IMG/VR virus record: IMGVR_UViG_3300008450_000107
Coordinates: 1-41,163 of that record
From: a virus
Length of the DNA: 41,163 nucleotides
Strand: one strand, 5' to 3'
Shown: piece after piece, positions 1-18,791 of the stretch
How the letters are laid out: every line of letters starts with the position of its first letter
Numbering within the stretch: the stretch's first letter is position 1
The notes under the pieces: generated by a model
What the model saw: the letters and a program-made list of their open reading frames with translations, nothing else
Databases searched by the model: none
What the model was told of the DNA's origin: nothing
Made by a program: the position numbers and the translations under genes

Positions 1-247
1 GAAAAAAGGGGGAATGTCCGCAGAAAGTGCGGGGTAAAAATATCAATGGGGGTGGGGTCTGTTGCGGGAAAACAACGGGTATAGGGGGAGGAACATATTG
101 GAATGAGCGGAATAGTGTATGGGTCGTGCGCGGGTACCGTCACGCGCAGCGGGGGGTGGCGGGGGTGTAGGGTGTCGCGCGTCGGGTATTTCTTTGACGC
201 ATGGGGGTCGATTTCTTTGACGCGTGCCAGGACGACGGGCAGTCTCT
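1..247. other. G-rich non-coding left end
   Basis: I see no convincing gene here. The + strand carries repeated G runs between about 46 and 92, spaced such that a G-quadruplex is conceivable although two loops are about 8 bases. A short hairpin CCGCA-GAAAG-TGCGG lies near position 20. The only longer open frame, on the minus strand at 43-270, is a low-complexity Pro/Arg-rich translation without a convincing ribosome binding site. Confidence 0.5.
188..223 (+). repeat. 13-bp direct repeat, two copies
   Basis: ATTTCTTTGACGC occurs at 188-200 and again at 211-223, a 23-bp period (roughly two helical turns). It lies just upstream of the palindrome cluster at 248-331, so it could be part of a protein-binding array; this is inference. 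Confidence 0.6.
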
Positions 248-261
248 TGTGAAATTTCACA
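248..261. promoter_or_regulatory. Perfect 14-bp palindrome, possible operator
   Basis: TGTGAAATTTCACA at 248-261 is a perfect palindrome upstream of the first promoter. The TGTGA/TCACA half sites recall CRP, but the central spacer is 4 rather than 6 bases, so a CRP site is not claimed. It is the first of several inverted repeats in 85 bp. Confidence 0.45.
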
Positions 262-278
262 GCCGTCCACTAGGTGGT

Positions 279-293
279 CATAACATTGTTATG
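279..293. promoter_or_regulatory. CATAACA-N-TGTTATG palindrome, copy 1
   Basis: Perfect 15-bp odd-centre palindrome (centre T), upstream of the promoter at 305-332. It is the first of ten copies in the early region. The placement suits an operator, but the binder is unknown. Confidence 0.7.
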
Positions 294-304
294 CAGCGAA
301 TGGG

Positions 305-332
305 TTGCACTAGCAGTGCATTTGTATATACT
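305..332 (+). promoter_or_regulatory. Likely sigma70 promoter for the first gene
   Basis: TTGCAC (305-310), a 16-bp spacer and TATACT (327-332) form a plausible -35/-10 pair. The spacer contains an inverted repeat GCACT-AGC-AGTGC (307-319), and the -10 overlaps GTATATAC (324-331). The untranslated leader to the ATG at 421 would be about 80 bases. Confidence 0.5.
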
Positions 333-375
333 TATGACTGGTAGGACTAGCGCCTACCCTGCTCTGTAAAAATCT

Positions 376-940
376 GGAACCGATACGGGGAACACCACTA
401 AAAACTAGGAGTGAATTCCCATGTCAAAAATCAATGTTTCCAATCTGATCAATGCCTATAACGCGACTGAAAAAGCATTCGGCACTTTCACAAAGGAAGT
501 GGCGAAACTGTACTCAGGCTGCAAAGTTGCCGCCGACTACGTTGCACGACGCAAGGAAGTCAACACGGCAATCGACCAACGGTTCGGAGATACCGTGGAC
601 GGTAAAGCACTTGCCACAAAGGTAAAGGCAAAAACGAACACGGTTCTGAACCGGCTGCTACCAGATGGGGTCAAACTCGGAGAGCGTAAAGGTGGCCGCA
701 AGGCTACTGGCAAGGCTACCGGCAAGGCTGCCACTGGTAAGGCTGAAAAGGCTACTGGCAAGGCTACGGAACAGCGGCCGACAATTCAGGCTGCCACCAT
801 TTCCGATGTCATGGCTGCACTGGCTCACGTTATCAGCGGAAAAACGAAAGTAGAGTTAAGCGCGATTCGATCACGCATTGACGCTATGTTCGCCACCGCT
901 ATCACCAACGCTAAGTAAAAAACAACCCCGTATCGGCTCC
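376..940. repeat. 15-bp inverted repeat flanking the first gene
   Basis: The arm at 376-390 (core CCGATACGGGG) is matched in reverse complement by 926-940 (core CCCCGTATCGG), 14 of 15 positions. The arms bracket the gene at 421-918: one lies in its 5' untranslated region, the other between its stop codon and its terminator. The arms could pair in the mRNA, or be traces of an inserted cassette. Confidence 0.65.
421..918 (+). CDS. Small basic protein with KATG-type repeats
   Basis: 165 residues, no recognised family. The N-terminal part (about 1-90) looks helical and mixed in charge. Residues about 91-118 are a run of K-A-T-G and K-A-A-T-G units, resembling the basic low-complexity tails of histone H1-like proteins. 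A further helical segment follows. The start ATG has AGGAG at 407-411, nine bases upstream. The gene is monocistronic, with its own promoter (305-332) and strong terminator (950-982), which suggests strong early expression. DNA or RNA binding is a guess from composition. The repeats are also repeated at DNA level, so copy number may vary between relatives. Confidence 0.75.
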   Translation: MSKINVSNLINAYNATEKAFGTFTKEVAKLYSGCKVAADYVARRKEVNTAIDQRFGDTVDGKALATKVKAKTNTVLNRLLPDGVKLGERKGGRKATGKATGKAATGKAEKATGKATEQRPTIQAATISDVMAALAHVISGKTKVELSAIRSRIDAMFATAITNAK

Positions 941-949
941 ACAAGCACG

Positions 950-982
950 ACGCCCCATGCCGCAAGGTGTGGGGCGTTTTGC
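950..982 (+). terminator. Rho-independent terminator after first gene
   Basis: ACGCCCCA (950-957) pairs with TGGGGCGT (970-977). An inner CC/GG closes a GCAA tetraloop, and TTTTGCTTTTT follows. It points rightward only; the opposite strand has no T run after the stem. Confidence 0.85.
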
Positions 983-988
983 TTTTTG

Positions 989-1003
989 CATAACATTGTT
1001 ATG
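989..1003. promoter_or_regulatory. CATAACA-N-TGTTATG palindrome, copy 2
   Basis: Perfect copy (centre T), extended to 17 bp by flanking G and C (988-1004). It sits directly behind the terminator, and its TTA gives the minus-strand TAA stop (999-1001) of the terminase small subunit gene. Confidence 0.75.
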
Positions 1004-1541
1004 CCAACCCCTCGCCGTCCTCGTCCACTTCCTCGAAGTCACCCTCGATGACCTCCGCATCTGCTACATGACTGACGGACGCCAGAGCAGACAGACGAGC
1101 GACCAGTTCCTGTTCCACCTCCGCAGACGGACGCACGACGTTCGCCACGTTGACGTTCACCTGTGCGCTGCCGCTCTCCACCAACTTCGACGCTCTCGCC
1201 AGAATCCCGAGGGCAGACACGCGACTAGCCGGTGGGCTATCGCGATCCGACGCCTCCTCTTTCAGACGGGCGAGCGTCCACTCCCTCAAGCCGATGCTCT
1301 GCTCCAGCAACGCCTTTTCGCTCTTCCGCTTCAGCGCCTCGATGTGTCGCTTCACCCTCTGATCGCCCATTAGGCGGGCGGCAGAAGAATGTATAGACGT
1401 TTTCTTGGAATCCGCTCCAGGTCGATAGGCGGTCACATACGCCTGCACCGGACGATCCCCTTTCACCACTAACTCACAGAATTTAATGGCATTTTTAGTC
1501 AGCGGCTTCAGCCCCTGCATAATCGGCTCATTGCTCGGCAT
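999..1541 (-). CDS. terS: Terminase small subunit (Terminase_2-like)
   Basis: 180 residues. After a short leader, the segment with LTKNAIKFCELVVKG, AYVTAYRPG, SSAARLMGDQRVKRHIEAL (residues about 14-70) matches the DNA-binding helix-turn-helix region of the Terminase_2 small subunit family. These proteins recognise phage DNA and hand it to the large subunit for packaging. The middle is helical (oligomerisation), and the C-terminus is acidic (VIEGDFEEVDEDGEG), as is common where it contacts the motor. The gene lies alone on the minus strand between rightward genes; no large subunit is in the window. The start is uncertain: there is no strong ribosome binding site before 1541, and an internal ATG at codon 8 is possible. 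Confidence 0.85.
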   Translation of the reverse strand: MPSNEPIMQGLKPLTKNAIKFCELVVKGDRPVQAYVTAYRPGADSKKTSIHSSAARLMGDQRVKRHIEALKRKSEKALLEQSIGLREWTLARLKEEASDRDSPPASRVSALGILARASKLVESGSAQVNVNVANVVRPSAEVEQELVARLSALASVSHVADAEVIEGDFEEVDEDGEGLA

Positions 1542-1629
1542 AACGAGATGTTACCTAGTAACGGTTTTCGATCTCCCGAATGTAAATCATTCCCATCCAG
1601 ACGGGCAAGCACTACGGTGTCACGAGGGA

Positions 1630-1658
1630 TTGACATATGTATATACATTTGCTATAAT
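1630..1658 (+). promoter_or_regulatory. Consensus sigma70 promoter with extended -10
   Basis: TTGACA (1630-1635), 17 bp, TATAAT (1653-1658), preceded by TGC, which gives an extended -10. Both hexamers match consensus exactly. The spacer holds GTATATAC (1639-1646). The predicted start is near 1665, with a CATAACA palindrome about 30 bases downstream. The next credible start codon is at 2184, so the transcript starts with about 520 non-coding bases. Confidence 0.9.
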
Positions 1659-1692
1659 GGCGAAGCCAAAGTCAGATACCGACATTGTTTTG

Positions 1693-1707
1693 CATAACAG
1701 TGTTATG
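1693..1707. promoter_or_regulatory. CATAACA-N-TGTTATG palindrome, copy 3
   Basis: Perfect copy (centre G) with flanking G/C (1692-1708), about 30 bases after the predicted start of the 1630-1658 promoter. In RNA it would form the tip of a longer stem: GTCAGA/TCTGAC plus CCG/CGG. Confidence 0.75.
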
Positions 1708-2058
1708 CGGTCTGACTGGTAGGCGGGACGGGCGAGACTAGTTATGGTCGATGACCCCTGAAACGATCTGGAAGAGGATCGGGTCAAGATGACAACTTGA
1801 TCGGGCGATGACGCGCTGGCGTGTGGGCTGCACACGCAAGGAGTGAAGACGCGACAAGTCGGTGCTGCGGGATACATAGAAAACGGTATTAGACAATCCC
1901 CAGTGGACAGATGGCTGACGGCGGCTGCAAGGCCGCCACTACCCCGTGTTAGACGGGACGGCCATGTTAAGCCGGTATTCGGTAGCACCTAGGCGTCTCA
2001 TTCCGTAGCCGGTACGGATGGGCAACATACATCCTGCGGCGTTAGCGGCATGAGCCTA

Positions 2059-2073
2059 CATAACAGTGTTATG
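2059..2073. promoter_or_regulatory. CATAACA-N-TGTTATG palindrome, copy 4
   Basis: Perfect copy (centre G). The symmetry extends to 25 bp with one mismatch, through GCCT (2054-2057) and AGGC (2075-2078), and again through GCGGC/GCCGC. Confidence 0.75.
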
Positions 2074-2183
2074 CAGGCGCCGCGAGTATCCGCATACATC
2101 GCTATCTCGCATTAGTGAATAGCCTAGGCTGCCTTGTTGGGAGACAGGGCAGCCGTGGGTGTTCAACCCAAGGAGACGCAACC

Positions 2184-2429
2184 ATGATTCTTGATAACGC
2201 GACTTATTCTCGTTTGCAAGCCAGTTCCGTCACGCCCAAAGTGATGGACAGTCTGCGTGTATCCGGTCGATCGCACTGGGCAGTCCGTGTTCGAGGCCAG
2301 GTCATTCTGGCAGGCGATCGTCTACAGGCAGTCGCCCTCTACGACAAGGCAGTCGTTCTCGGAGCCAACCCAGTGTTACTCAATAACGGTCGCTTGTGCG
2401 ACCGATCCCGCGCCTTTCCCAAGCACTAA
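2184..2429 (+). CDS. Hypothetical early protein, 81 residues
   Basis: Not recognised. The start ATG at 2184 is chosen because AAGGAG (2170-2175) lies eight bases upstream; the frame stays open upstream to 2115 but no better start is seen. The protein is mixed, with several Arg/Lys and no membrane segment. It is the first gene behind the hairpin-rich leader and is followed after 12 bases by the next gene, probably in one operon. Confidence 0.65.
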   Translation: MILDNATYSRLQASSVTPKVMDSLRVSGRSHWAVRVRGQVILAGDRLQAVALYDKAVVLGANPVLLNNGRLCDRSRAFPKH

Positions 2430-2441
2430 CAGGAGACGATC

Positions 2442-2792
2442 ATGTCAGAGCAATTCGACACTCTAGTGCGTACCGCACACCAAGCCGGTATAGCCGCCAT
2501 GGACAACTGCCGTCCAACCCCGATGGTGGTACGCAACAACCAGACAGGCCAGCAATGGAAGATCGATGAGGGTATGTGCGGCTTCGCATGGATCGAGTTC
2601 GCCGGTAACACGGCATTCGGTCGATGGGCAAAGAAGGCTGGCATTGCCCGTAAGCACTACCCCAAAGGCCTCTCGATCTGGGTGCAAGTGGGCGGGCAGT
2701 CCTACGAACTGAAGTCCGCCTATGCACAGGCGTTCTCTGCCGTCTTACAGCAGGCGGGAGTCAACGCCCATGCCGGTAGCCGTCTCGATTAA
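2442..2792 (+). CDS. Conserved phage protein of unknown function
   Basis: 116 residues. Blocks such as GNTAFGRWAKKAGIARKHYPKG and GQSYELKSAYAQAF near the C-terminal half, with a final SRLD, look like a small family of phage early proteins, but no function is known to me. The start ATG has AGGAG about seven bases upstream (in aacaggagacgatc). No membrane segment or metal motif is seen. It lies in the early rightward block between the gene at 2184 and palindrome copy 5. Confidence 0.75.
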   Translation: MSEQFDTLVRTAHQAGIAAMDNCRPTPMVVRNNQTGQQWKIDEGMCGFAWIEFAGNTAFGRWAKKAGIARKHYPKGLSIWVQVGGQSYELKSAYAQAFSAVLQQAGVNAHAGSRLD

Positions 2793-2799
2793 CCAATCG

Positions 2800-2814
2800 C
2801 ATAACAATGTTATG
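2800..2814. promoter_or_regulatory. CATAACA-N-TGTTATG palindrome, copy 5
   Basis: Perfect copy (centre A) with flanking G/C. It is immediately followed by the ribosome binding block caggagtaagaagacc and the ATG at 2831. An almost identical palindrome plus ribosome site cassette recurs at 3637-3668. Confidence 0.75.
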
Positions 2815-2830
2815 CAGGAGTAAGAAGACC

Positions 2831-3082
2831 ATGCCCCTGATGTATCAAGTCGAGCATTACACCCTCTGTGATGGATGGGTGAACTGCTGGCAGACCTACA
2901 AAGACCAGCAAGCCACGCCCACTCTGTACGAGACCCGCGAGGAGGCCGAGGCAGACCTCCGCGACTTCATTGCCGAGTGCATGACCTACTTCCAGAGCGG
3001 CGAGTTGGACTCGCCTCCTTCATGGGATGAGTGGCGGGTGTCTGCCGTCTATGTTCAGCAACAGCAAATGATGGAGGTGTGA
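2831..3082 (+). CDS. Small acidic hypothetical protein
   Basis: 83 residues. The start is set at the ATG at 2831 behind AGGAG (2816-2820), matching the conserved leader of neighbouring genes, rather than at upstream in-frame codons inside the palindrome. It is rich in Trp and Tyr (DGWVNCWQTY), with an acidic helix (REEAEADLRDFIAEC) and a Gln-rich end. It resembles uncharacterised phage/cyanophage early proteins; the function is unknown. The stop is followed by one base before the next GTG start. Confidence 0.7.
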   Translation: MPLMYQVEHYTLCDGWVNCWQTYKDQQATPTLYETREEAEADLRDFIAECMTYFQSGELDSPPSWDEWRVSAVYVQQQQMMEV

Positions 3083-3083
3083 G

Positions 3084-3308
3084 GTGAGCCGCAAAGAGCT
3101 GATTAAAAAACTCATCGAACGACATCTCAAGGATATCCAACAAGACGGTGGAGCAGAGAGTTATCTGTGGGAAGTGTTTTCCTACGGCAATTCCTACAAG
3201 GGCTACCACTACATGACCAACGACGAGCTGCTCTCCCATTGGAACGGAGACTGCGAGAACGATGCCGATATAGTCAATTCAATAGAGGAAACACAAGATG
3301 CGGAGTGA
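3084..3308 (+). CDS. Small hypothetical protein (GTG start)
   Basis: 74 residues, not recognised. The GTG start at 3084 has GGAGG about six bases upstream, inside the end of the previous gene, so translation is probably coupled. The N-terminus is a basic helix (MSRKELIKKLIERHLKD) and the C-terminus is acidic. It overlaps the next gene by 11 bases. Confidence 0.65.
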   Translation: MSRKELIKKLIERHLKDIQQDGGAESYLWEVFSYGNSYKGYHYMTNDELLSHWNGDCENDADIVNSIEETQDAE

Positions 3309-3573
3309 AACCCAAGAACTAATCGAACGACTGTCTCCATCAGAACGGCAAGACCTACTGGACTGCCTGCGCGAGAGGTACAAGCAGGAAAGGGATGACT
3401 TGCGACAGGCGGCAGGCTGGCCTACCCGCACGTTCAACGAGTGGCTAGACGAACTCCCACTGGATGACAACGGACTGCCGCTCGAAGGCGCACCCACCAT
3501 GCGAATGTGCCTGACAGACGAGCAGCGCAGGATCGCCATGATGGCGTGGGATGCAGCCAGGGATCAGGCTTGA
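3298..3573 (+). CDS. Small charged hypothetical protein
   Basis: 91 residues, start ATG at 3298 with an AGAGGA-type ribosome site. The N-terminal half is strongly charged helix (SPSERQDLLDCLRERYKQERDDLRQ) and the C-terminal half ends in a second helix (DEQRRIAMMAWDAARDQA). No family is recognised. The promoter at 3570-3597 overlaps its stop codon. Confidence 0.7.
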   Translation: MRSETQELIERLSPSERQDLLDCLRERYKQERDDLRQAAGWPTRTFNEWLDELPLDDNGLPLEGAPTMRMCLTDEQRRIAMMAWDAARDQA

Positions 3574-3597
3574 AGTATATACAGGATGTGTTAAAAT
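3570..3597 (+). promoter_or_regulatory. Probable sigma70 promoter before amidoligase
   Basis: TTGAAG (3570-3575), a 16-bp spacer and TAAAAT (3592-3597). The spacer begins with the GTATATAC motif (3575-3582) also seen at 324 and 1639. It would start transcription near 3604, upstream of palindrome copy 6 and the gene at 3666. Confidence 0.6.
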
Positions 3598-3636
3598 ATT
3601 CCGTGATGAAAAACTAATCCCGTATCCCAAAGGATA

Positions 3637-3651
3637 CATAACAATGTTATG
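3637..3651. promoter_or_regulatory. CATAACA-N-TGTTATG palindrome, copy 6
   Basis: Perfect copy (centre A), just downstream of the promoter at 3570-3597 and directly before the ribosome block caggagtgaagacc and the ATG at 3666. It is positioned to block transcription as an operator or roadblock. Confidence 0.75.
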
Positions 3652-3665
3652 CAGGAGTGAAGACC

Positions 3666-5090
3666 ATGCATGTATTGAAACTGCCGTACATATCTCGGCA
3701 CATTAGTCTTTTGCCGTCTCCAGAACAGGCGGACTTTATCAATCGGTTCTGTGACTTCTACGAGCGTGGCGATGGCCGTAGGCTGTTCCGCGAGATCACT
3801 GCCATGCTGTCAAACTACACGGAGCCAGAGTTACTCGGGTTCTCGTTCAATCGCGCCTCGCTCAAGTCATTCGCCAGACTGATCGCAGTCGAGTGCGAGT
3901 CGCGTGACTATCATCTGCCGCAGATCATGCTCCGCCATGCCACTCACGGCATTGCATCCTCATACGTCCCCGACGTCATGGACGATGCCAGCACAGGCTA
4001 CGACTTCGACGAGTGTCGTGACTATCTCGACGATACTGTCGGCGTCTTTACTTGTGATGACTGCGAACGAGTCTTTCACAACAACGACTATTGCTGTGTG
4101 GCAGGCGATCGATCCGTCTGCGAGTCCTGCCGTGACGATCACTACACCTACTGTGACGAGGATGACGAGTACGTCCACAACGATGACGTTAGCGAGGCCA
4201 TCAGTCGCTACGGCAATCGCATCTACATCAATACGAACCGAGACAACTACGACTACAGTTACGACGAGGATCGTGAGATATACATCCACAATGATTGGGT
4301 GGGCGATTCCGTCATCGGGCAGTATCACAGTTCCAAGAACCAGTTCGTCATGCGCCATGACGATTGGACAGCCAAGCACTACCGGCATATCGGTGTCGAA
4401 CTCGAGGTCGAGGAGGTCGATGGCGACACTCGCAATCGCGAGGCCATTGCCAAGTCCATCAACGAGGCAGTCAATGGTGACGAGAAGAATCTGTTCTTCG
4501 AGCGTGACGGCTCTCTGACCTGTGGCTTCGAGATGATCAGCAACCCCATGTCGTTGCCAGCCCTGCGCAATCTATTCCAGTTCCTCAACTCCCACCTAGT
4601 CAAAGACCTTCGCAGTCACAAGACCACCACTTGCGGCCTGCATGTCCATGTCAGCCGCTCCAATCTCACGCCGCTGCAGATTCAGAAGGTGGTCGCGTTC
4701 ATCAACGCTCCCGAGAATGAGTGGTTCATCCGTGGCCTAGCCCGTCGCTATGGCGCAGGCTTCTGCGCTATCCGTGACAAAAAGATCGGCAAGGGTATCC
4801 ATGTCGGCACGGATCGGTACGAGGCAGTCAATCTGACTAATCGCCGCACGATCGAGTTCCGTATCTTCAAGGGCAGTCTCAAGTACGAGGCCGTGATTGC
4901 AGCCATCGAGTTCTGCCACGCCATCTTGGAGTTTTGTCGTCCTGCCGTCACTGGCATCAATCAACTCTCAGCCGGTGCGTTCCTATCCTTCTGCGCTAAC
5001 AAAATGCCAGCCGACACTAAGGTGCTGCGCGCCTACATATCCAGTCGATTAAGCGGACGAGCGGAGTTGCTCGATCAAGAAGCCGCATAA
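3666..5090 (+). CDS. Phage amidoligase with N-terminal zinc ribbon
   Basis: 474 residues. Residues about 129-156 hold a Cys-rich, zinc-binding-like segment (CDDCERVF, then CC and CESC), followed by a strongly acidic Asp/Tyr-rich stretch. From about 240 comes a ligase core: GVELEVEEV, then CGLHVHVSR (about 322-330), then NRRTIEFRIFKGSL (about 391-404). This order fits the Amidoligase_2 family, which has the glutamine synthetase / gamma-glutamylcysteine ligase fold and makes ATP-dependent amide bonds. Iyer and colleagues described such enzymes with partner amidotransferases; the next gene here is one. The substrate is unknown. The start ATG at 3666 is preferred over GTG 3657 because AGGAG (3653-3657) and the leader match other genes. 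The stop codon lies in palindrome copy 7. Confidence 0.82.
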   Translation: MHVLKLPYISRHISLLPSPEQADFINRFCDFYERGDGRRLFREITAMLSNYTEPELLGFSFNRASLKSFARLIAVECESRDYHLPQIMLRHATHGIASSYVPDVMDDASTGYDFDECRDYLDDTVGVFTCDDCERVFHNNDYCCVAGDRSVCESCRDDHYTYCDEDDEYVHNDDVSEAISRYGNRIYINTNRDNYDYSYDEDREIYIHNDWVGDSVIGQYHSSKNQFVMRHDDWTAKHYRHIGVELEVEEVDGDTRNREAIAKSINEAVNGDEKNLFFERDGSLTCGFEMISNPMSLPALRNLFQFLNSHLVKDLRSHKTTTCGLHVHVSRSNLTPLQIQKVVAFINAPENEWFIRGLARRYGAGFCAIRDKKIGKGIHVGTDRYEAVNLTNRRTIEFRIFKGSLKYEAVIAAIEFCHAILEFCRPAVTGINQLSAGAFLSFCANKMPADTKVLRAYISSRLSGRAELLDQEAA

Positions 5091-5100
5091 CAGTGTTATC
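5086..5100. promoter_or_regulatory. CATAACA-N-TGTTATG palindrome, copy 7 (imperfect)
   Basis: The last base is C instead of G, the only imperfect copy. Its TAA (5088-5090) is the stop codon of the amidoligase. The GATase gene starts 28 bases later behind aaggagtaaagacc. Confidence 0.65.
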
Positions 5101-5127
5101 TAAATTACAACCTAAGGAGTAAAGACC

Positions 5128-6054
5128 ATGTGTTTATTAGTTGAACAAAAAGCCGCCACGCAATTCACGGACGAGTTTTTGGCCGACGTCTACACCAAGA
5201 ACCAAGATGGCCTTGGCATCATGTACGCCGAGGCAGGCAACGTGATCGTTCGTAAGGTGCTGCCTCGCAATGCCGACGACTTCATCCGTTACTACCGCGA
5301 TCATGCCGATGGTCGTGACTGCATCTGGCATGCGCGTATGCAGACTCACGGCGACATCGACCTGGAGAACTGTCATCCGTACATGGTGACTCGCAACATC
5401 TGGATGGCACACAACGGCATCCTCTCTGCTGGCAACAGCAACGACAAAACCAAGTCCGACACTTGGCATTTCATCCGCAACGTCATCGAGCCAGCCCTCG
5501 CCTACCAGCCTGACTTGCTGCTCTCTGCGCAGTATCAGGCTTTCCTTGGCGATCTTATCGGCAGCACTAACAAGTTCGGCTTCATGACCCACAGTGGTCA
5601 GGCCGTCATCATCAATCGCTCTGCTGGCGTGACGTATCAGGGTGCTTGGCTCTCCAACACTTACGCTTGGTCTGCCTCCAAGTTTGGTGTCAGCACTGGC
5701 TCCACTCGATCGTACGGTGGGTACGCTGGCTACGGTGGGTACAGCGCGTACTCCAGCAAAAGCAGTTACGGCTACTACGACTGGAACAGCGGCTACACCT
5801 ACGACACCAAGTCCAAGTCCGTCACCTCCACCAAGACCTCCCTCAAGCCTATCGTCAAGGCAGCCTACAACTCATGGCTCAACAACAACCTTGAGCAGTG
5901 GGTGCTGGATGCACCGTGGAAAGCGGGGATTCTCCTCGATTACGTCTACGAGAGTAACGACTCCGAGGAATTCGCTGCAGAAGAACCTGCCATGGCAGCC
6001 CAGTACATCGAAGAACTGTTTGCTAACGACGAACTCAACCCCACCCAACTGTAA
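5128..6054 (+). CDS. Class II glutamine amidotransferase-like protein
   Basis: 308 residues. The protein starts Met-Cys, so removal of Met exposes Cys2, the expected N-terminal nucleophile of class II (Ntn-hydrolase, GATase_6-like) glutaminases. Supporting motifs are NQDGLGIMY (about 25-33), IWHARMQTHG (about 66-75) and WMAHNGIL (about 92-99). Such domains release ammonia from glutamine for a partner ligase; the adjacent amidoligase is the obvious partner. Residues about 190-225 form a Gly/Tyr/Ser low-complexity tract (YGGY repeats), followed by a Ser/Thr/Lys linker and a helical, acidic C-terminus. The ATG at 5128 has AAGGAG nine bases upstream. Only 11 bases separate it from the next gene. 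Confidence 0.82.
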   Translation: MCLLVEQKAATQFTDEFLADVYTKNQDGLGIMYAEAGNVIVRKVLPRNADDFIRYYRDHADGRDCIWHARMQTHGDIDLENCHPYMVTRNIWMAHNGILSAGNSNDKTKSDTWHFIRNVIEPALAYQPDLLLSAQYQAFLGDLIGSTNKFGFMTHSGQAVIINRSAGVTYQGAWLSNTYAWSASKFGVSTGSTRSYGGYAGYGGYSAYSSKSSYGYYDWNSGYTYDTKSKSVTSTKTSLKPIVKAAYNSWLNNNLEQWVLDAPWKAGILLDYVYESNDSEEFAAEEPAMAAQYIEELFANDELNPTQL

Positions 6055-6065
6055 GGAGTAAAGAC

Positions 6066-6494
6066 ATGGGACTCGATATGTATCTGACCGGCGAGAAATA
6101 TCTCTCCGATAACTTCGACCATCCAGAGAAGAACCTCACGGAAGATGGCTTTCGCGTGAAGTCTAAGCGCCTTGAGTTGGGTTACTGGCGTAAGCACCCA
6201 AACCTCCACGGCTTCATCGTGCAGAACTTCGCCAGCGGCCAAGACAAATGTCAGGAGATTTATCTCACGGCGATTGATCTGCATAGGATCATCAAGGCGG
6301 TTAAGGAAAAGAAGCTGCCGCCCACGACAGGCTTTTTCTTTGGCGTATCTCCAGGCAGCGATGAGGAAATGGAGAACGACCTGAGGATATTGGAGGCGGC
6401 GCAGACCTGGATTCTTCAGCGTCCGCCTGAAGAGGAGACTGATGATCGAGTGATGGCGGAGTCTCGCATCGTTATCTATCAGGCTTCTTGGTAG
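6066..6494 (+). CDS. Conserved phage protein downstream of GATase
   Basis: 142 residues, start MGLDMYL, later ELGYWRKHPNLHGF and TTGFFFGVSPGSDEE. This resembles a widespread uncharacterised phage and bacterial family. The ribosome block aggagtaaagac precedes the ATG at the same distance as in the two genes upstream, so it belongs to the amidoligase/GATase transcription unit and may act with it. No catalytic motif or membrane segment is seen. Confidence 0.75.
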   Translation: MGLDMYLTGEKYLSDNFDHPEKNLTEDGFRVKSKRLELGYWRKHPNLHGFIVQNFASGQDKCQEIYLTAIDLHRIIKAVKEKKLPPTTGFFFGVSPGSDEEMENDLRILEAAQTWILQRPPEEETDDRVMAESRIVIYQASW

Positions 6495-6508
6495 CCGCGA
6501 GATGTCTG

Positions 6509-6523
6509 CATAACATTGTTATG
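6509..6523. promoter_or_regulatory. CATAACA-N-TGTTATG palindrome, copy 8
   Basis: Perfect copy (centre T), between the stop at 6494 and the ribosome block caggagataaagac of the next gene. Confidence 0.75.
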
Positions 6524-6546
6524 TGTTTTATACAGGAGATAAAGAC

Positions 6547-6750
6547 GTGGAATATGACGAGTATCAGCAACAGCAGATCGAGCATGAACGCTTCGAGACT
6601 CGACTGCTAGAGATTCAAACCTTGATCCGCTATCACACTACGCTCATCGACTGTCTTGAGACAGAGATGAAAGTGATGAAGCTCGGCATTGGTAAGCAGA
6701 GGAAGTACGATGATCAACCAACTCGTTCGGATCAACAATTCCCTTTCTAA
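6547..6750 (+). CDS. Small coiled-coil hypothetical protein (GTG start)
   Basis: 67 residues. The start is placed at GTG 6547 because the preceding aggagataaagac reproduces the conserved leader; the frame also reads from a GTG inside palindrome copy 8. A predominantly helical, Glu/Gln-rich sequence (QQQQIEHERFETRLLEIQTLI) suggests a short coiled coil. It overlaps the next gene by 41 bases in another frame. Function unknown. Confidence 0.65.
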   Translation: MEYDEYQQQQIEHERFETRLLEIQTLIRYHTTLIDCLETEMKVMKLGIGKQRKYDDQPTRSDQQFPF

Positions 6751-7150
6751 GTTATCCAGAAAGTTTCATGGGCTTGCACCATTCATTGATCACTTGGAGA
6801 TCACAGACGCCCCGCATCTGGCCGTGGCTGGCACGGATGGTCGCAGGCTAATGTTCAATCTGCAGTGGGTGCAATCGCTCAGCGATGAGCAACTCGATGG
6901 GCTGGTGATGCACGAGATCATTCATGTCATCGACGCCCACATCGAGAGGGCAGAGGATCGTGCATTGACCGTGTGGAACTCGGCTTGTGACATCCGCAGC
7001 AACTATGTGCTGCGTAATATCGAACTGCCTGTCCCGCAAGGTACGACTGACAACCCTGCCTACGACGCTATGGATATCGAGGATATCTACGAAGACCTGA
7101 TGAGCCAGATCAATCTGATCACCCGATTCACACAGGAGAATGTCGAATGA
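6710..7150 (+). CDS. Putative zinc metallopeptidase domain protein
   Basis: 146 residues. HEIIHVIDAH at residues 68-77 gives a HEXXH zinc site plus a third His. The surrounding pattern (AGTDGRRLMFN before, WNSACDIRSNYVL after) matches the putative metallopeptidase domain found with VWA-domain proteins (DUF2201 N-terminal / PF13203-like). The usual C-terminal VWA-like half is absent, so this is a stand-alone zincin domain. The ATG at 6710 has AGAGGA upstream. It could process a host or phage protein; the target is unknown. The stop overlaps the next start (ATGA). Confidence 0.78.
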   Translation: MINQLVRINNSLSKLSRKFHGLAPFIDHLEITDAPHLAVAGTDGRRLMFNLQWVQSLSDEQLDGLVMHEIIHVIDAHIERAEDRALTVWNSACDIRSNYVLRNIELPVPQGTTDNPAYDAMDIEDIYEDLMSQINLITRFTQENVE

Positions 7151-7392
7151 CTTGGAATCACAGAGTGGTTTTTTTCAAGGGCTTAGAAGGAGTCATCGAC
7201 GACTACTACGCCATTCAGGAAGTGTATTACGAGAACGGCAAGCCAATAGGTTACTGCGATGCAGAGCCAGCAGGAGAATCGCTGACAGAACTAAAGCGAT
7301 GCTTGACTCGCATGATAGATGCGATAGAGCAGCCCGTACTCAACGCCGATGAACTCGAAGGTCAATCCACAGAGGACACCACCAATGACTGA
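7147..7392 (+). CDS. Conserved small phage protein
   Basis: 81 residues, start MTWNHRVVFF, then DYYAIQEVYYENGKPIGYC and a Leu-rich helix ending in PVL. The pattern is familiar from many phage and plasmid hypothetical proteins, without known function. AGGAG lies eight bases before the ATG, inside the metallopeptidase gene, and the start overlaps that gene's stop (ATGA), indicating translational coupling. It overlaps the next gene by 8 bases. Confidence 0.75.
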   Translation: MTWNHRVVFFKGLEGVIDDYYAIQEVYYENGKPIGYCDAEPAGESLTELKRCLTRMIDAIEQPVLNADELEGQSTEDTTND

Positions 7393-7756
7393 CATCAGCA
7401 AATTCATAGAAAGATTTAACTCTGACTCGCTCAATCAACGACTGCAAGTTGAGAAGGATCAAGGCTGGCGAGATATGGTGGATAGCATTCCATTCATTCA
7501 GTTCCCAGCAGGCTGGAAGTTTCGAGCGGTACCTCCGTTCCTAGATGCTGTCGTGCGGTTCCATGTTGAGCTGCCAAACGGGGATCAAAAGTCTATCTAC
7601 CTAGACAGCCGCGACACTCTCGGAAGCTTCGGCGACAGCCCATACTGGGAAGTGTATCCAGTGGAGGGCGACGCAAGGCGCTGCGCCATGAACGACACTG
7701 AATCACTGCTTGCACTCATCGCTGCCCCATCAGCGGAGACTAAATCTTATGAATGA
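7385..7756 (+). CDS. Hypothetical early protein, 123 residues
   Basis: No family recognised. The start ATG at 7385 follows GAGG by nine bases and overlaps the previous stop. A helical N-terminus is followed by a probably beta-rich middle (FPAGWKFRAVPPFLDAVVRFHVELPNGD). It overlaps the next gene by 8 bases, consistent with one coupled operon. Confidence 0.65.
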   Translation: MTDISKFIERFNSDSLNQRLQVEKDQGWRDMVDSIPFIQFPAGWKFRAVPPFLDAVVRFHVELPNGDQKSIYLDSRDTLGSFGDSPYWEVYPVEGDARRCAMNDTESLLALIAAPSAETKSYE

Positions 7757-7997
7757 CAACATCGAAAAGTTCGGCCCCACTTCAGTGGACAACTTGCGGG
7801 AGGCTTCTGCCAAAGCCCTCGCTTTGCTGGAGCGTAACGCAGTCACCATCGATGGCGAGTGGGGTCACTGCCGTTCACTCGAGGAACTGGAGCAGGATGG
7901 TGCCTTGCCAGAAGAAATACTCGGGCTTCGCAAAGCAATCGCTGACTATGATGAAGCCCTCAATGAACTCATTGAGATGCTGAGAGTGATCGAATGA
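7749..7997 (+). CDS. Small helical hypothetical protein
   Basis: 82 residues from ATG 7749 (GGAG ten bases upstream; the start is inside the end of the preceding gene). An Ala/Leu/Glu-rich helical composition and an acidic C-terminal helix (DYDEALNELIEMLRVIE). Unrecognised. The stop overlaps the next start (ATGA). Confidence 0.65.
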   Translation: MNDNIEKFGPTSVDNLREASAKALALLERNAVTIDGEWGHCRSLEELEQDGALPEEILGLRKAIADYDEALNELIEMLRVIE

Positions 7998-8233
7998 ACT
8001 ACAAGATCATTGAGATGGCAGTGCGGGATGGCGCCACGATCGGGCTATTCCGTGCATACGACAAAGAGTTCCCGACTCCGCAAGAGATAGTGGACGCCAT
8101 CACTAAGGAGGTGATGCATGAAATCAGACAATGGACAAGGAACGCGGCATTACAAGATGATCAAACTCCCGCCTCGTCGGAAGATGTACGGGTGGGACTA
8201 CGAGAAGAGGCAGCAGCTATGCATGACAGGTAA
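7994..8233 (+). CDS. Hypothetical protein, coupled start
   Basis: 79 residues beginning MNYKIIEMAV, start overlapping the previous stop (ATGA). The N-terminal 40 residues read like a genuine small alpha/beta protein. The last third overlaps the next gene (8118-8348) by 116 bases in another frame and looks less protein-like, so the true extent is uncertain. Not recognised. Confidence 0.5.
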   Translation: MNYKIIEMAVRDGATIGLFRAYDKEFPTPQEIVDAITKEVMHEIRQWTRNAALQDDQTPASSEDVRVGLREEAAAMHDR

Positions 8234-8348
8234 GGAGTGGCATCAGTATGCGAAAAGAGATTCGTTCAAGACGGAAAGAGGGTCTGATTCCGCTTGGGGA
8301 AATAGTGTCGAAGTTTATGTTGACGGCAAACCAATGGAGAGCCAATGA
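8118..8348 (+). CDS. Small basic hypothetical protein
   Basis: 76 residues. The ATG at 8118 has a near-ideal ribosome site (AAGGAGG six bases upstream), the best in this stretch. The protein is rich in Lys, Arg, Tyr and Trp (YKMIKLPPRRKMYGWDYEKR) with no known domain. It overlaps the preceding frame by 116 bases and the next start by 4 (ATGA). Confidence 0.6.
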   Translation: MKSDNGQGTRHYKMIKLPPRRKMYGWDYEKRQQLCMTGKEWHQYAKRDSFKTERGSDSAWGNSVEVYVDGKPMESQ

Positions 8349-8518
8349 AAAACGCAAGAAGAACAGCGCAATCAGAAGAGATATCTCGACTGCGAGAAAT
8401 GCTGATTCAAATGGAGATTGATTTCAATCGGGAGCGAGGCGAACGCCTTGTCTCTGAGATCATTCTCTGCACCCTGCTCTTCGCAGCAGGCGTGATCGTT
8501 GGATTCTATCTGAGGTAG
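8345..8518 (+). CDS. Small single-pass membrane protein
   Basis: 57 residues. It begins with ATG 8345 overlapping the previous stop. The N-terminal two thirds are charged helix (SEEISRLREMLIQMEIDFNRE). The C-terminus is one hydrophobic segment (about 41-55: ILCTLLFAAGVIVGFY) ending LR, typical of a tail-anchored protein. No family recognised. The frame fits exactly between its neighbours. Confidence 0.6.
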   Translation: MKNARRTAQSEEISRLREMLIQMEIDFNRERGERLVSEIILCTLLFAAGVIVGFYLR

Positions 8519-8520
8519 TT

Positions 8521-8763
8521 ATGAAAGCCAAAGTCAGTAAGACTGAAGAACTGGAGATCAAGATTGATAGTGATATCTGTGACGCCATCGTCGTTCAGTG
8601 CGTCACGAACGTCATGGAGAACCTGAAAGCAGACTTGAAACTACGCAAGGCAGGCAAGCATAAACTCGGCGTGTTCAGCAGCGACAAGCAGGAAGACATC
8701 GAGATCATGACTGACCACATCAATGCCATGGAAGTAGTTCTTAAATACTTCTCTAATCCATAA
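8521..8763 (+). CDS. Conserved small phage protein
   Basis: 80 residues, ATG 8521 with GAGG five bases upstream, two bases after the previous stop. The pattern DICDAIVVQCVTNVMENL...DIEIMTDHINAMEVVLKYF resembles a recurrent phage early-protein family of unknown function. The stop TAA (8761-8763) is part of palindrome copy 9. Confidence 0.7.
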   Translation: MKAKVSKTEELEIKIDSDICDAIVVQCVTNVMENLKADLKLRKAGKHKLGVFSSDKQEDIEIMTDHINAMEVVLKYFSNP

Positions 8764-8773
8764 CACTGTTATG
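8759..8773. promoter_or_regulatory. CATAACA-N-TGTTATG palindrome, copy 9
   Basis: Perfect copy (centre C) that contains both the TAA stop of the upstream gene (8761-8763) and the ATG start of the downstream gene (8771-8773). A bound protein would cover the downstream start region. Confidence 0.75.
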
Positions 8774-9250
8774 TACGTCACATTGAGCGAGGCCGAGCAA
8801 CGGCTGGCTATGTTCCTGGCCAAAGAGCGTTACCGAAACGCAAGGAACAAGGGACTGCCCGACAAAAAGATGGGCGATCAATCCAATGAACTGACTGACC
8901 TTGAGGGGATTGCCGCAGAGATCGCCTTCTGCAAACTCGCCAATGTGTATCCCGACCTCGACATGGATCACACCAAAGCAGAGGATTGTTTCCTTCGCAG
9001 CGGCAAGTCCGTCGATGTCAAGTCAACCACTTACGAGAACGGGAGGCTGCTTGCCGTCAAGTGGAAGTCCGCCGACAAGGTGGATATCTTCGCGCTGATG
9101 GTGGGCAGATTCCCTAAGTATCGATGCGCTGGGTTCATGAAGTCTGAAGACCTGTTGAAGGACGGCAGGCTCATGAACCTCGGGCATGGCGAAGGATATG
9201 CGGCAAGTCAAGATGAGTTAGAAGATATCCAATCACTACTCGGAGACTGA
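8771..9250 (+). CDS. Putative PD-(D/E)XK-fold nuclease
   Basis: 159 residues. After a helical N-terminus, GIAAEIAFCKLA (46-57, Glu50), Asp72 and the motif VDVKST (Asp82-x-Lys84) with a following hydrophobic strand fit the PD-(D/E)XK nuclease core. The motif is reasonably clear but short, so a nuclease-like fold is more secure than activity. No strong ribosome binding site is seen before the ATG, which lies in palindrome copy 9, so initiation may be coupled to the stop eight bases upstream. Confidence 0.6.
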   Translation: MYVTLSEAEQRLAMFLAKERYRNARNKGLPDKKMGDQSNELTDLEGIAAEIAFCKLANVYPDLDMDHTKAEDCFLRSGKSVDVKSTTYENGRLLAVKWKSADKVDIFALMVGRFPKYRCAGFMKSEDLLKDGRLMNLGHGEGYAASQDELEDIQSLLGD

Positions 9251-9251
9251 C

Positions 9252-9476
9252 ATGACCCTAGATGACAAGTCGCCACCCAACAGTTGGCAGCAAGAGATGG
9301 ATCGTATGCCGTGGAAATACAGAGAACCCGGCAGCCCTAACGTCAATGACATCCTAGCGAGGATGCGGCAGAACGGGCTTTGGCTTGAGGCCAACGCCAT
9401 AGCCGAGGAGATATCCCGCCTTCGAGCCGAACTGTTTTCAGTCAGGGAGAGGTTATCGATTCATGACAAAGGTTGA
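9252..9476 (+). CDS. Small hypothetical protein with helical C-terminus
   Basis: 74 residues, ATG 9252 with GGAG six bases upstream in the end of the nuclease-like gene. The C-terminal half is helical with heptad-like Leu/Ala (ANAIAEEISRLRAELFSVRERL), a possible coiled coil. Unrecognised. It overlaps the next gene by 14 bases. Confidence 0.65.
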   Translation: MTLDDKSPPNSWQQEMDRMPWKYREPGSPNVNDILARMRQNGLWLEANAIAEEISRLRAELFSVRERLSIHDKG

Positions 9477-9660
9477 TAAGCAAAAGCAAATCTATCGCGA
9501 GATCAAAATGCTTCATGGCAGAATCCATGCCTTGAACTTAGAACTGAATCGCTTGGAGGCAGGCGCACCAGAGCCTTTCCATTTTGATCCAGATTTCATC
9601 CCGCCATTTCTGAGGAAAGATTATGTCGAGCCTGTCCCCCGAAGATCGAATCAAAGTTGA
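9463..9660 (+). CDS. Small coiled-coil hypothetical protein
   Basis: 65 residues, ATG 9463 with GAGG ten bases upstream. A basic, helical N-terminus (QIYREIKMLHGRIHALNLELNRLE) gives way to a Pro/Phe-rich tail. No family recognised. It overlaps the next gene by 38 bases. Confidence 0.6.
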   Translation: MTKVDKQKQIYREIKMLHGRIHALNLELNRLEAGAPEPFHFDPDFIPPFLRKDYVEPVPRRSNQS

Positions 9661-10069
9661 AGAGCTAATCTACGAACTGCACGGCTGGGCTTCAGCCAAC
9701 AAGGCTGCCCCCAGTTCCGACTGCATGACCGAGGCTGCCTATGCCCTCGCCAAGCTGGTGACGAATCGGGCAGTGAGAGACCCAGAGCCGGTCTCTCCTA
9801 AGTCCGTCCTGCAGACAGCGCAGGAGATAATCGATGAGCGTGGCAAGCGCAGGGACAACGGGCAGGAACGCTCGATGCAGCGCATAGTGCGGGTGTTTGA
9901 GGCGCTCACCGACCACAAGATGACTGAGGTGGAGGGCTGGCTCTTCATGGTCGTTCTGAAGCTTTGCAGGGAACGCACCGGCTCAGACCTTGACAACTGG
10001 ATCGATGGGGCTGCCTACATGGGACTCGCTGCCGAGGCAGTAGAGCGGGCTAAAGCCCCCTCTGCATAA
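9623..10069 (+). CDS. Conserved phage protein, DUF6378-like
   Basis: 148 residues. The arrangement AQEIIDERGKRRDNGQERSMQRIVRVFEAL (split by family-like spacing), then WLFMVVLKLCRERT and DLDNWIDGAAYMGLAAEA, resembles the DUF6378 family of helical phage proteins of unknown function. The ATG at 9623 has AGGA six bases upstream. Its stop codon TAA (10067-10069) lies in palindrome copy 10. It is the last gene before the candidate small RNA and the strong terminator. Confidence 0.65.
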   Translation: MSSLSPEDRIKVEELIYELHGWASANKAAPSSDCMTEAAYALAKLVTNRAVRDPEPVSPKSVLQTAQEIIDERGKRRDNGQERSMQRIVRVFEALTDHKMTEVEGWLFMVVLKLCRERTGSDLDNWIDGAAYMGLAAEAVERAKAPSA

Positions 10070-10079
10070 CACTGTTATG
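10065..10079. promoter_or_regulatory. CATAACA-N-TGTTATG palindrome, copy 10
   Basis: Perfect copy (centre C). It supplies the TAA stop of the upstream gene, and its final TG forms the TGn of an extended -10 (TGTTATGAT, 10078-10086). A bound protein would occlude that promoter. Confidence 0.75.
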
Positions 10080-10092
10080 TTATGATACGCAC

Positions 10093-10174
10093 ACACTGCA
10101 CCATTCTTTTGCGTCTTCACTCCGTGGTTGTAGTGACTTGGCCTGCTGGCGTCAAACCCAGCAGGCTTTTTTTT
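10093..10174 (+). ncRNA. Candidate small RNA, two hairpins
   Basis: An extended -10, TG-T-TATGAT (10078-10086), lacks a clear -35 but would start RNA near 10093. The RNA would begin with a 10-bp stem, 10094-10103 with 10125-10135 (CACTGCA.CCA to TGG.TGTAGTG, one bulge and one G-U pair), with a 21-base loop containing a U-rich run. It would end at the intrinsic terminator 10141-10174, about 82 bases in all. Alternatively it is the operon's 3' end or an attenuator before the gene at 10194. Confidence 0.4.
10141..10174 (+). terminator. Strong rho-independent terminator
   Basis: GCCTGCTGG (10141-10149) pairs with CCAGCAGGC (10158-10166), followed by eight T. It ends the long early operon and any RNA started at 10093. 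Confidence 0.92.
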
Positions 10175-10193
10175 GCCTCCAATTAGGACGCTT

Positions 10194-10583
10194 ATGAAAG
10201 AGAAATTCAAAGGCCCACCCGAAGATAAAGAGGTGGACATCAACGTGATGATGCCGAGGATACTGATCCTCGATAACACGAGCGAGGCGATCAAGGCAGC
10301 AGAGAAAGTGACAGAGATGCTGACCTACGCCTGCACTTCCCTTATCAATGCCAACCGCGATCCGCAGTTATGCATGAGTATCATCAACCATGTATTCGAG
10401 CGGGATCGAACGCTGTTTATTGCCTTAAATCGTGGGCAAAAATACGACCTCGATCACTTTCGCCTGACGATGGTGGCACTGGCGACTGCCTACGAATACA
10501 TCTGCGGTGGACACATGATCCAGCTGTCTGAGCCAGTGGACTTCGATGAGATACTGGAGCTGCGCATGGAGGGCAGGGCGTGA
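10194..10583 (+). CDS. Hypothetical protein after terminator
   Basis: 129 residues from ATG 10194 (AGGA five bases upstream; an in-frame TTG at 10173 lies in the terminator T run and is rejected). Helical, with acidic and basic clusters; no family recognised. Because a strong terminator sits 20 bases upstream, expression needs readthrough, antitermination or a promoter I cannot see. The stop overlaps the next start (GTGA). Confidence 0.65.
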   Translation: MKEKFKGPPEDKEVDINVMMPRILILDNTSEAIKAAEKVTEMLTYACTSLINANRDPQLCMSIINHVFERDRTLFIALNRGQKYDLDHFRLTMVALATAYEYICGGHMIQLSEPVDFDEILELRMEGRA

Positions 10584-10771
10584 AGAACAAGACCTGTCAT
10601 TCCTGCCACTACTCGAAGGCAGTTCAGTACGACCTGGCTAAGGGCGGCAAGACAGACTGGATGCTCTACTGCACCTACTGGCAGGGGCATCTCTATGCCG
10701 CCTGTGCTGCGTTTGTTTACGAACCCGGCACAGACGTCAAGGAACTGACAGCCGCCAAGAAAGTGGCGTAA
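10580..10771 (+). CDS. Small four-cysteine protein
   Basis: 63 residues, GTG start overlapping the previous stop. CHSCHYSKA at the N-terminus, then YCTYW and AACAAFVYEPGTD, give Cys pairs consistent with a small zinc-binding fold seen in phage hypothetical proteins. Role unknown. Confidence 0.7.
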   Translation: MKNKTCHSCHYSKAVQYDLAKGGKTDWMLYCTYWQGHLYAACAAFVYEPGTDVKELTAAKKVA

Positions 10772-10800
10772 TATGTATTTACATTAACAAGGGGGTTTAT

Positions 10801-11190
10801 ATGGCCTACACCAAGCCGTCGCTCCGAGAGCGACTAAAGAATCAGATCATGTCCGAGAACGTCGCTGGCACTAAGGCTGGCCAGTGGTCAGCCCGTAAGG
10901 CGCAGCTGCTAGGCAAACGCTACAAGGATGCAGGCGGTGGTTACTCGGGCAGCAAAACCAAGTCACAGAAGAGCCTCAGCAAATGGACAAAGCAAGAATG
11001 GACAACCAAATCTGGCAAGCCTTCGAGCAAGACTGGCGAAAGATATTTGCCAAAGAAGGCGATCAAAGCCCTCTCCTCATCGGAGTATGCCGCGACGACG
11101 GAAGCCAAGCGCAAGGGCAAAGCCAAGGGCAAGCAGTTCGTGAAGCAGCCCGAAAAGATCGCCAAGAAAGTTAAGCGGTATCGGGATTGA
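10801..11190 (+). CDS. Basic DUF5872-like phage protein
   Basis: 129 residues, very rich in Lys, Ser and Arg. The segment SLSKWTKQEWTTKSG, then GERYLPKKAIKALSSSEYAATTEAKR and KQPEKIAKKV, fits the DUF5872 family found in large and small phages. Function is not established, though the charge suggests nucleic-acid contact. The ATG has AAGGGGG upstream. The upstream gap has GTATTTAC (10775-10782), a variant of the GTATATAC motif. Confidence 0.75.
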   Translation: MAYTKPSLRERLKNQIMSENVAGTKAGQWSARKAQLLGKRYKDAGGGYSGSKTKSQKSLSKWTKQEWTTKSGKPSSKTGERYLPKKAIKALSSSEYAATTEAKRKGKAKGKQFVKQPEKIAKKVKRYRD

Positions 11191-11194
11191 TCCA

Positions 11195-11491
11195 ATGCCG
11201 AAACAAAAGAACGAAGACAAGATGCTGATCTTTCGATGCCATCAGGAAACGATTCTGCGCATCAAAGCCATTGCAGCAGCCGAAGGGCGGACAGTCTCCG
11301 CCCAGATTCGTCAAATGATTGACGACTACCCCCTCAAACCCCGCTTCATCAAGGCTGCCAAGAACAGCCTGAAGCGTAACCCACGCGCCAAACCGAAGCA
11401 GATCATCGAGGAGGCGCTGGCGGCCAAATACCCTACCCAAGTAGAGGGTCTAGACTCGCCGCCTGTAATGCCTTCTCAGCCTGATCTATAG
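11195..11491 (+). CDS. Ribbon-helix-helix (Arc-like) DNA-binding protein
   Basis: 98 residues. Residues about 9-46 (KMLIFRCHQETILRIKAIAA, then EGRTVSAQIRQMIDDY) fit an Arc/MetJ-type ribbon-helix-helix: one strand plus two helices that bind palindromic DNA as a dimer. The rest is basic, then Pro-rich. It is the clearest candidate transcription regulator in the rightward block and could bind the CATAACA palindrome; this is inference. The ribosome site is weak. The last 59 bases overlap the convergent gene 11433-11975. Confidence 0.7.
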   Translation: MPKQKNEDKMLIFRCHQETILRIKAIAAAEGRTVSAQIRQMIDDYPLKPRFIKAAKNSLKRNPRAKPKQIIEEALAAKYPTQVEGLDSPPVMPSQPDL

Positions 11492-18539: not shown

Positions 18540-18791
18540 ATGAAAGATAAAGAAAAGCGCGGGAAATTATCCGTTGTCAAGGATATGCCTGATGAAGTGA
18601 CTGAGCTTTATCCCAGCATTGACACCATCCTTAACAGTTTCGCAGGCACGAATCCGCTTTATATCTTGGTTGTGTCAGTAGATAAGGACGGCACTATCAA
18701 CTGCGGGTTTAACACGACATCAAAAGCGGAACTGCTCCTGCTGACAGAACAGTTCCGCTATTTACTGATGAACGGCGAGTTTGATAGCTAA
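18540..18791 (+). CDS. Small conserved phage protein
   Basis: 83 residues from ATG 18540 (AAAGG nine bases upstream; an in-frame TTG at 18534 is less likely). The core NPLYILVVSVDKDGTINCGFNTTSKAELLLL (beta hairpin then helix) resembles a small family seen in many phages, function unknown. The stop codon overlaps that of the convergent 2322-residue gene. Confidence 0.7.
   Translation: MKDKEKRGKLSVVKDMPDEVTELYPSIDTILNSFAGTNPLYILVVSVDKDGTINCGFNTTSKAELLLLTEQFRYLLMNGEFDS

Follow-up and report, generated by a model that had tools for sequence, protein, structure and literature searches.

Distributed, repeated operators have precedents in phages. In the temperate Streptomyces phage phiC31, symmetric operators called CIRs are spread over the early region and belong to the repressor c. 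Phage SPbeta carries the 15-bp element SPBRE at the promoters of about ten genes, all under one master repressor, MrpR, which has a tyrosine-recombinase fold and maintains lysogeny (PMC10516654, in the part available). The stoperators of mycobacteriophage L5 and cluster A number more than 20 repressor sites, placed in promoters and in short stretches between genes, and are proposed to stop both initiation and elongation; each L5 site is an asymmetric 13-mer that follows the direction of transcription and is bound by a monomeric helix-turn-helix (HTH) repressor (PMC9283540, in the part available). On plasmid pPAD8, MtvA of the MtvA/MtvT pair binds the 11-mer TAACATTGTTA (PMC11826091, likewise in part). 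Here an array is described from a viral DNA stretch of 41,163 nucleotides (IMG/VR record IMGVR_UViG_3300008450_000107, positions 1 to 41,163; hereafter the window), in which ten palindromes are distributed over the early region. To judge from sequence, a small early gene, here named X, probably encodes the protein that binds them. The preferred reading, with a probability of about one half, is that X is an autogenous early shut-off protein acting as a dimer on TAACA-N-TGTTA palindromes.

The palindrome array of the window

A search of the whole window for CATAACANTGTTATG at up to three mismatches returned exactly ten matches, against a mean of 0.96 and a largest value of 4 in 100 dinucleotide shuffles, well above background frequency. 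All ten lie within 279-10,079, with no match in the other 31 kb. Nine are perfect palindromes and the copy at 5086 is mismatched at its last base; the central bases are, in site order, T, T, G, G, A, A, G, T, C and C. These are the same ten copies, positions, centres and single end mismatch that a first-pass annotation of this DNA had reported, together with their confinement to the first 10 kb. Its remark that the copies sit between genes or at their edges was borne out as well: none of the ten is more than 20 bp inside a gene (hand-chosen gene set), while such interiors make up 80% of 260-10300. Four of the sites (989, 5086, 8759 and 10065) share bases with a stop codon.

The annotation had taken the palindromes for a two-fold operator array of the early region and had suggested comparing arms with flanks in related phages. 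Three relatives (G019, G013 and G037) have sites at corresponding places. When places were paired by gene context, the arms were identical at 222/224 positions (16 pairwise comparisons at 8 places in the three relatives), the centre in 4/16 comparisons and the flanks at 260/640 positions (41%). That the arms are kept while the centre and flanks are not is the mark of selection on two half-sites, which supports the two-fold operator interpretation. In other phages the constant part is an 11-bp core, TAACA-N-TGTTA, identical to the MtvA 11-mer; many contigs bear arrays with this core and variable outer two bases.

Co-occurrence of X-type genes and sites

Gene X, which the first-pass annotation overlooked, is the first early gene and lies between sites, near a divergent terminase gene (identified by Pfam), in the window and in the mapped arrays with X of the A2/A7 and A3 types. 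The A4 query is an X-type protein profile with no motif input, built from members in motif-found contigs. All 80 loci that it returned hold the core, and 78 hold at least two copies; three permuted-arm controls on the same loci gave one match in total. Among the 70 loci whose X DNA falls in no motif-scan stretch, the core is present in 70/70 and at least twice in 69/70, with a site within 260 bp upstream of X in 68 and within 520 bp downstream in 68. When only non-redundant loci outside the motif scan were counted, at least two sites were present in 43/43.

Site density was profiled in 28 of the 80 loci, which extend more than 6 kb downstream and have distinct site patterns. TAACA-N-TGTTA occurs 390 times in them; counts for the 19 remaining arm permutations range from 0 to 6. 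Upstream of X, 43 sites fall in the last 500 bp, two at 1.0-1.5 kb and none farther. From X on, there are 3 sites in the 500-bp bin of X itself, 65 in the next, and then 0.8-2.4 per kb to +8 kb. One phage, G083 (L324), has two adjacent X-type genes, and its second X gene explains two sites found 1.2-1.4 kb upstream of the copy used.

The same 25 chosen site-bearing records were used for the record tests of A7, integrase, HTH_3 and ribbon-helix-helix (RHH) proteins. The A7 profile matches 18/20 records outside the window's clade (18/25 overall), and the remaining two (G091 and G092) carry an A3-type X. In the direction from motif to X, a scan of viral contigs with the 15-mer gave at least 120 stretches, and a set of 38 stretches (37 records) was picked for at least two near-matches. 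Among the stretches of the two motif scans, X was present in 20/29 with at least three sites, in 5/16 with two and in 6/87 with one (Fisher p 9e-11 for at least three sites versus one). This test is weaker and partly circular, because the X profiles were partly built from these loci.

Site type follows X subfamily

Among 30 A3-type loci, the close relatives bear the 15-mer or near-matches to it. Seven distant loci (L285-L289, L292 and L293; L288 and L289 do not differ around X) carry GCATAACATGTTATGC instead, which keeps the same arms with the central base gone (spacer 0). The GCATAACATGTTATGC sites are found on both sides of X, those upstream at about 170-195 bp from its aligned part. A scan for this 16-mer gave 16 stretches; eight contigs had at least two, and seven of these were the X contigs just named. 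In L294 and L295, two further distant loci, four TAACACGTTA/TAACGTGTTA copies were found upstream of X, an observation made with no control.

Among A3 loci outside the motif scan (n=13), at least one site was present in 13 and at least two in 12; this count omits L291, L294 and L295, in which sites of those types are absent. L291 measures only 428 bases. In L281, L036 and L024, which break off near X, only one side bears sites. Because site spacing differs by X subfamily, specificity is directly testable with short proteins and short duplexes.

Sequence and predicted structure of X

X has no convincing match among curated families and did not turn up in the collections of isolates and bacteria that were searched. 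At E<=0.01 the window X matched neither Pfam nor PHROG. The 53 A7 members gave scattered weak Pfam matches (the widest to DUF6492, in 9 members, best E 0.0066), and any given PHROG match occurred in at most 2 members. A tblastn search of 50,697 phage records with A7-type, A3-type and G037 X, in which the window X was not a query, gave no match at E<=0.01. In a bacterial genome collection 34 stretches matched the A4-type pattern and none was confirmed.

The A7 model (predicted local distance difference test score, pLDDT, 85.6) comprises three helices, a linker that is disordered and two paired helices at the C terminus. The window X model, built from six sequences (pLDDT 67), has a similar layout. 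A second look at the A7 model ranked an isochorismate-pyruvate lyase first (Z 5.7, root-mean-square deviation 3.3, 79 aligned), a match rejected as too low. The window X compared with the A2/A7 family by hhalign gave E values of 0.41 and 0.3. The window X is tied to the large family by position, sites and similar predicted helix layout.

Distribution of the array

In phage records the best match for one virion structural protein of the window is DSL-LC04 (57% identity); the protein also matches HMO-2011 and many T4-type cyanophages. One neighbouring record (L116) overlaps the left end of the window at 99.9% and extends to the large terminase gene, and another (G038) is near-identical to the window from 5645 onward. 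When 39 of 80 loci from one search were scanned, four matched at up to two mismatches, with exact matches only in G038. Among 13 structural-protein relatives, 12 are without the core, and none of the 13 has a six-base-arm palindrome repeated at least four times. No array was found in MEP401 and MW202733 (chosen by their amidoligase and searched whole), nor in the first 50 kb of DSL-LC04 and HMO-2011, the latter with one core.

Some contigs showed further repeats. The cores of G067 are at 14323, 22836, 28204 and 38775, 5-10 kb apart, and two of them share the 19-mer ACTTTAACAATGTTAAAGT. G003 has a longer palindrome, ACCATAACAWTGTTATGGT, with CCTAAACA variants. In L048 and L099 some sites lie within longer imperfect palindromes (CTGAC...GTCAG).

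Tyrosine integrase (PF00589) was matched in none of the 25 records, in a search that did not cover serine integrases and on records that may be fragments. A repressor of lysogeny therefore looks unlikely. The array is a widespread control system of aquatic bacteriophages, and apparently one not previously described: among the papers listed as containing the core one was relevant, none of the papers listed for phages of the HMO-2011 type, for phiC31 CIRs or for podovirus palindromes was to the point, and the part of PMC5311408 available holds nothing on CIRs.

Promoters, terminators and other genes of the window

The features discussed are collected in Table 1. P1 and P3 are presumed from their recurrence in relatives. 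Site 1 is separated from the -35 hexamer of P1 by 11 bp, and the end of site 10 from the closing stem by 60 bp. At P2 and the presumed P3, a site lies 29-48 bp downstream of the inferred start and ahead of the first gene, and in G013 and G037 two sites bracket P2.

Table 1. Coordinates of the sites, gene X and associated features in the window
Feature	Coordinates	Strand	Description
Site 1	279..293		upstream of presumed promoter P1 of gene X
P1	305..332	+	presumed promoter of gene X; TTGCAC-16-TATACT; from inspection and pattern in relatives, missed by promoter scan
Gene X	421..918	+	proposed regulator binding the sites, 165 aa; N part helical, linker basic and disordered, helical pair at the C terminus
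Stem after X	949..978	+	terminator-like stem downstream of gene X
Site 2	989..1003		immediately beyond the stem after X; overlaps the TerS-like stop codon
P2	1630..1658	+	promoter; TTGACA-17-TATAAT, 12/12 consensus
Site 3	1693..1707		about +29 to +43 of P2 (start inferred)
Site 4	2059..2073		end of untranslated leader downstream of P2
Site 5	2800..2814		gene junction, immediately 5' of ribosome site
P3	3570..3597	+	presumed promoter; TTGAAG-16-TAAAAT, 9/12; chance reaches the same score
Site 6	3637..3651		about +34 to +48 of presumed P3; immediately 5' of amidoligase gene
Site 7	5086..5100		amidoligase/amidotransferase junction; one end mismatch
Site 8	6509..6523		gene junction
Site 9	8759..8773		overlaps stop of one open reading frame (ORF) and start of the next
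Site 10	10065..10079		end of last ORF ahead of terminator-like stem
Closing stem	10140..10167	+	terminator-like stem closing the array
RHH protein	11195..11491	+	candidate regulator of the first-pass annotation; window's clade only

A palindrome, GTATATAC, is common to the spacers of P1, P2 and P3 (324-331, 1639-1646 and 3575-3582) and is present too at P1 and P2 of G019, G013 and G037; it is possibly a second operator. The untranslated leader after P2 (about 400 bases, 1708-2114) holds site 4, and G013 has similar stretches. An Rfam search of window positions 1-12000 gave no match at E<=1.

The early region encodes a putative amidoligase and a protein that scores just below the cut-off for class II glutamine amidotransferases. 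A piece related to DUF2201-type proteins is found at 6689-7150 and in L070 at 8074-10403. Proteins of this type sit with an AAA_5 protein inside A4-type arrays, and the profile of the piece matches 4/4 window-clade records, 12/13 of the A4 clade and 0/13 structural-protein relatives. Beyond the array, 18788-25756 encodes a 2322-aa protein that has an LPD38 domain and weakly resembles phrog_2206, a virion RNA polymerase family (E 0.023). An N4-like virion RNA polymerase with hairpin promoters was considered and rejected: this protein matches phrog_2206 only weakly and has no sequence match in the PDB.

Proposed mechanism and its alternatives

The direct results behind the model are the sites, the conservation of their arms, their co-localisation with X, the subfamily-specific site type and the near absence of sites from the X gene. 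In the proposed mechanism, X would be made first, as the first early gene, from P1, and would bind the TAACA-N-TGTTA palindromes as a dimer. Once bound beside early promoters and at gene junctions, it would repress the early genes by blocking both initiation and elongation by the host RNA polymerase. The X transcript, running from P1 to the terminator, would cross no site, and X production would continue. This layout, in which X crosses no site and the other early genes lie beyond one, fits a shut-off that spares its own gene. The site between promoter and first gene at P2 and P3 of the window also counts for shut-off. The chances that X acts by early shut-off are about even.

A number of observations weigh against the early shut-off model. 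Site 1 is upstream of P1, at a distance that varies by X type, and no steric block is possible from there. The promoter scan was overall at chance level (6 found, 8.2 expected). Foldseek gave no match for X at E<=0.001, and no fold match was convincing. No profile link joined the window-type, A2/A7 and A3 X (hhalign E 0.17-0.44), and with the A7 profile no match was obtained in the window, G019, G037 or G013; since profiles fail to join the X types, homology of the window X to the large X family is unproven. The window's own X type is represented by only 8 loci, several of them from the same or near-identical phages. Sites also occur apart from X. No X was found by hidden Markov model in 9/29 stretches with at least three sites (three of the nine are from contigs with X elsewhere, and a gene in L070 aligns weakly with X). 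The sole newly found contig with several 16-mers, L388, has no X within the 3.7 kb examined, and G067 (L260-L262), a relative by its structural gene, carries four cores spread across 24 kb without an X match. G003 (L211-L213) has 12 near-matches across its whole 47.7 kb, and no member of the three X families was matched in it. The terminase gene expected beside X is seen in only 3 of the 13 relatives that served as negatives. In A4-type loci the centre is not free (A or T in 373/390), and 139/353 sites in 26 such loci lie inside crudely called ORFs. Finally, other candidate binders are at hand, with HTH_3 in many A4-type records and RHH in the window's clade.

The A4-type sites inside ORFs would suit an architectural or partition-type X that bridges 10-20 sites into one nucleoprotein domain, like KorB or MatP, as would the median spacing of 578 bp over at least 8 kb, usually with one site upstream of X, and the lack of helical phasing in that spacing. 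Such a role is unlikely: the window sites are at gene edges (10/10) and near promoters, and an X gene almost free of sites is unneeded for bridging. X could also activate early transcription, or make the polymerase processive across the early operon, given that site 1 closely precedes P1 in the X types looked at and that L072 and L279 have a site upstream of a second promoter-like sequence. However, the gap between site and -35, judged by eye, ranges from 11 to about 46 bp, the hexamers of P2 are already consensus and the window's P2 and P3 have a site downstream, which leaves activation decidedly unlikely.

Another possibility is that the true binder is a host protein or a different phage protein, with HTH_3 as the candidate in A4-type phages, and that X is only a neighbouring gene under its regulation. 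The X types are unalignable, yet the site is near-constant, and MtvA, an AbrB/MazE protein of a Pseudomonas plasmid, binds exactly the core (PMC11826091, in the part available). The first-pass annotation had proposed the RHH protein and HTH proteins as regulators. The window RHH profile matches 5/5 records of the window's clade (G000, G038, G019, G037 and G013) and 0/20 other site-bearing records, so RHH is not a general partner; that part of the proposal failed, while co-occurrence within the clade stood. There RHH occurs as regularly as X and is possibly a partner. Its absence from all 49 loci reaching about 8 kb beyond X is uninformative, as the window RHH lies 10.3 kb beyond X. Pfam RHH_1 was weak in 5/25 records, none over the cut-off, and the matches in G033 and G087 are inside a 208-aa frame. 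HTH_3 was matched in 18/25 records at E<=0.1 (5 over the cut-off, 16 outside the window's clade). It went unmatched in seven records (G000, G038, G013, G080, G081, G091 and G092), the window included, and its matches in G019 and G037 are partial and within large ORFs; HTH_3 was rejected as a general binder. An MtvA-like binder was rejected too, with MazE_antitoxin in 0/27 site-bearing records at E<=10. Site spacing, moreover, tracks the X subfamily, and a binder other than X is quite unlikely.

The palindrome might instead work as an RNA hairpin near ribosome sites, in translation or RNA processing. Sites 5 and 6, each immediately ahead of a ribosome site, would be well placed for this, and GC hairpins near A4-type sites (26 loci) favour the 5' side, with 23/364 sites having one close upstream and 3 one downstream, against 96/3640 random places (2.6%). 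Since site 1 is upstream of P1, and hence untranscribed from it, and the outer bases of many sites are non-complementary, this function is most improbable. In 10/26 loci a GC hairpin directly abuts the site that comes first after X, with neither a gap nor a T run; these abutting hairpins, in L306, L312, L318, L320, L321, L325, L327, L337, L340 and L371, have a four-base loop. It is possible that such hairpin-plus-site elements are composite terminators, but a polymerase halted at the site edge would not yet have completed the hairpin. The broader proposal, that X is a new class of DNA-binding regulator with which apparently lytic aquatic phages switch off their whole early domain in one step by way of the distributed sites, partly through X-dependent hairpin-plus-site terminators, is tentative and rather doubtful.

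If the early shut-off model is true, a large group of uncultured aquatic phages has an early shut-off device, run by a regulator family for which no described member was found, and a distributed operator array exists in phages without a detected tyrosine integrase. The array is also a DNA signature by which such phages can be found.

Comparison with known systems

Like the CIRs of phiC31, the palindromes of the window are symmetric operators distributed through the early region. The element shares with SPBRE its length of 15 bp and its repetition. Unlike MrpR, X is predicted to be small and helical, and PF00589 was matched in 0/25 records, though a diverged fold could escape detection. The identity of the core with the MtvA target is perhaps a coincidence, as the AbrB/MazE family of MtvA was unmatched in the 27 site-bearing records. 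With the L5 system the window shares its many sites at promoters and intergenic spaces of early genes (10/10 outside gene interiors). It departs from L5 in that the sites are palindromes, X is without a convincing family match and no tyrosine integrase was found. The first-pass annotation had called the array similar to the L5 stoperators yet distinct, and the asymmetric, monomer-bound L5 sites (PMC9283540, in the part available) agree with that judgement: the array would work like a stoperator system, although not L5's own.

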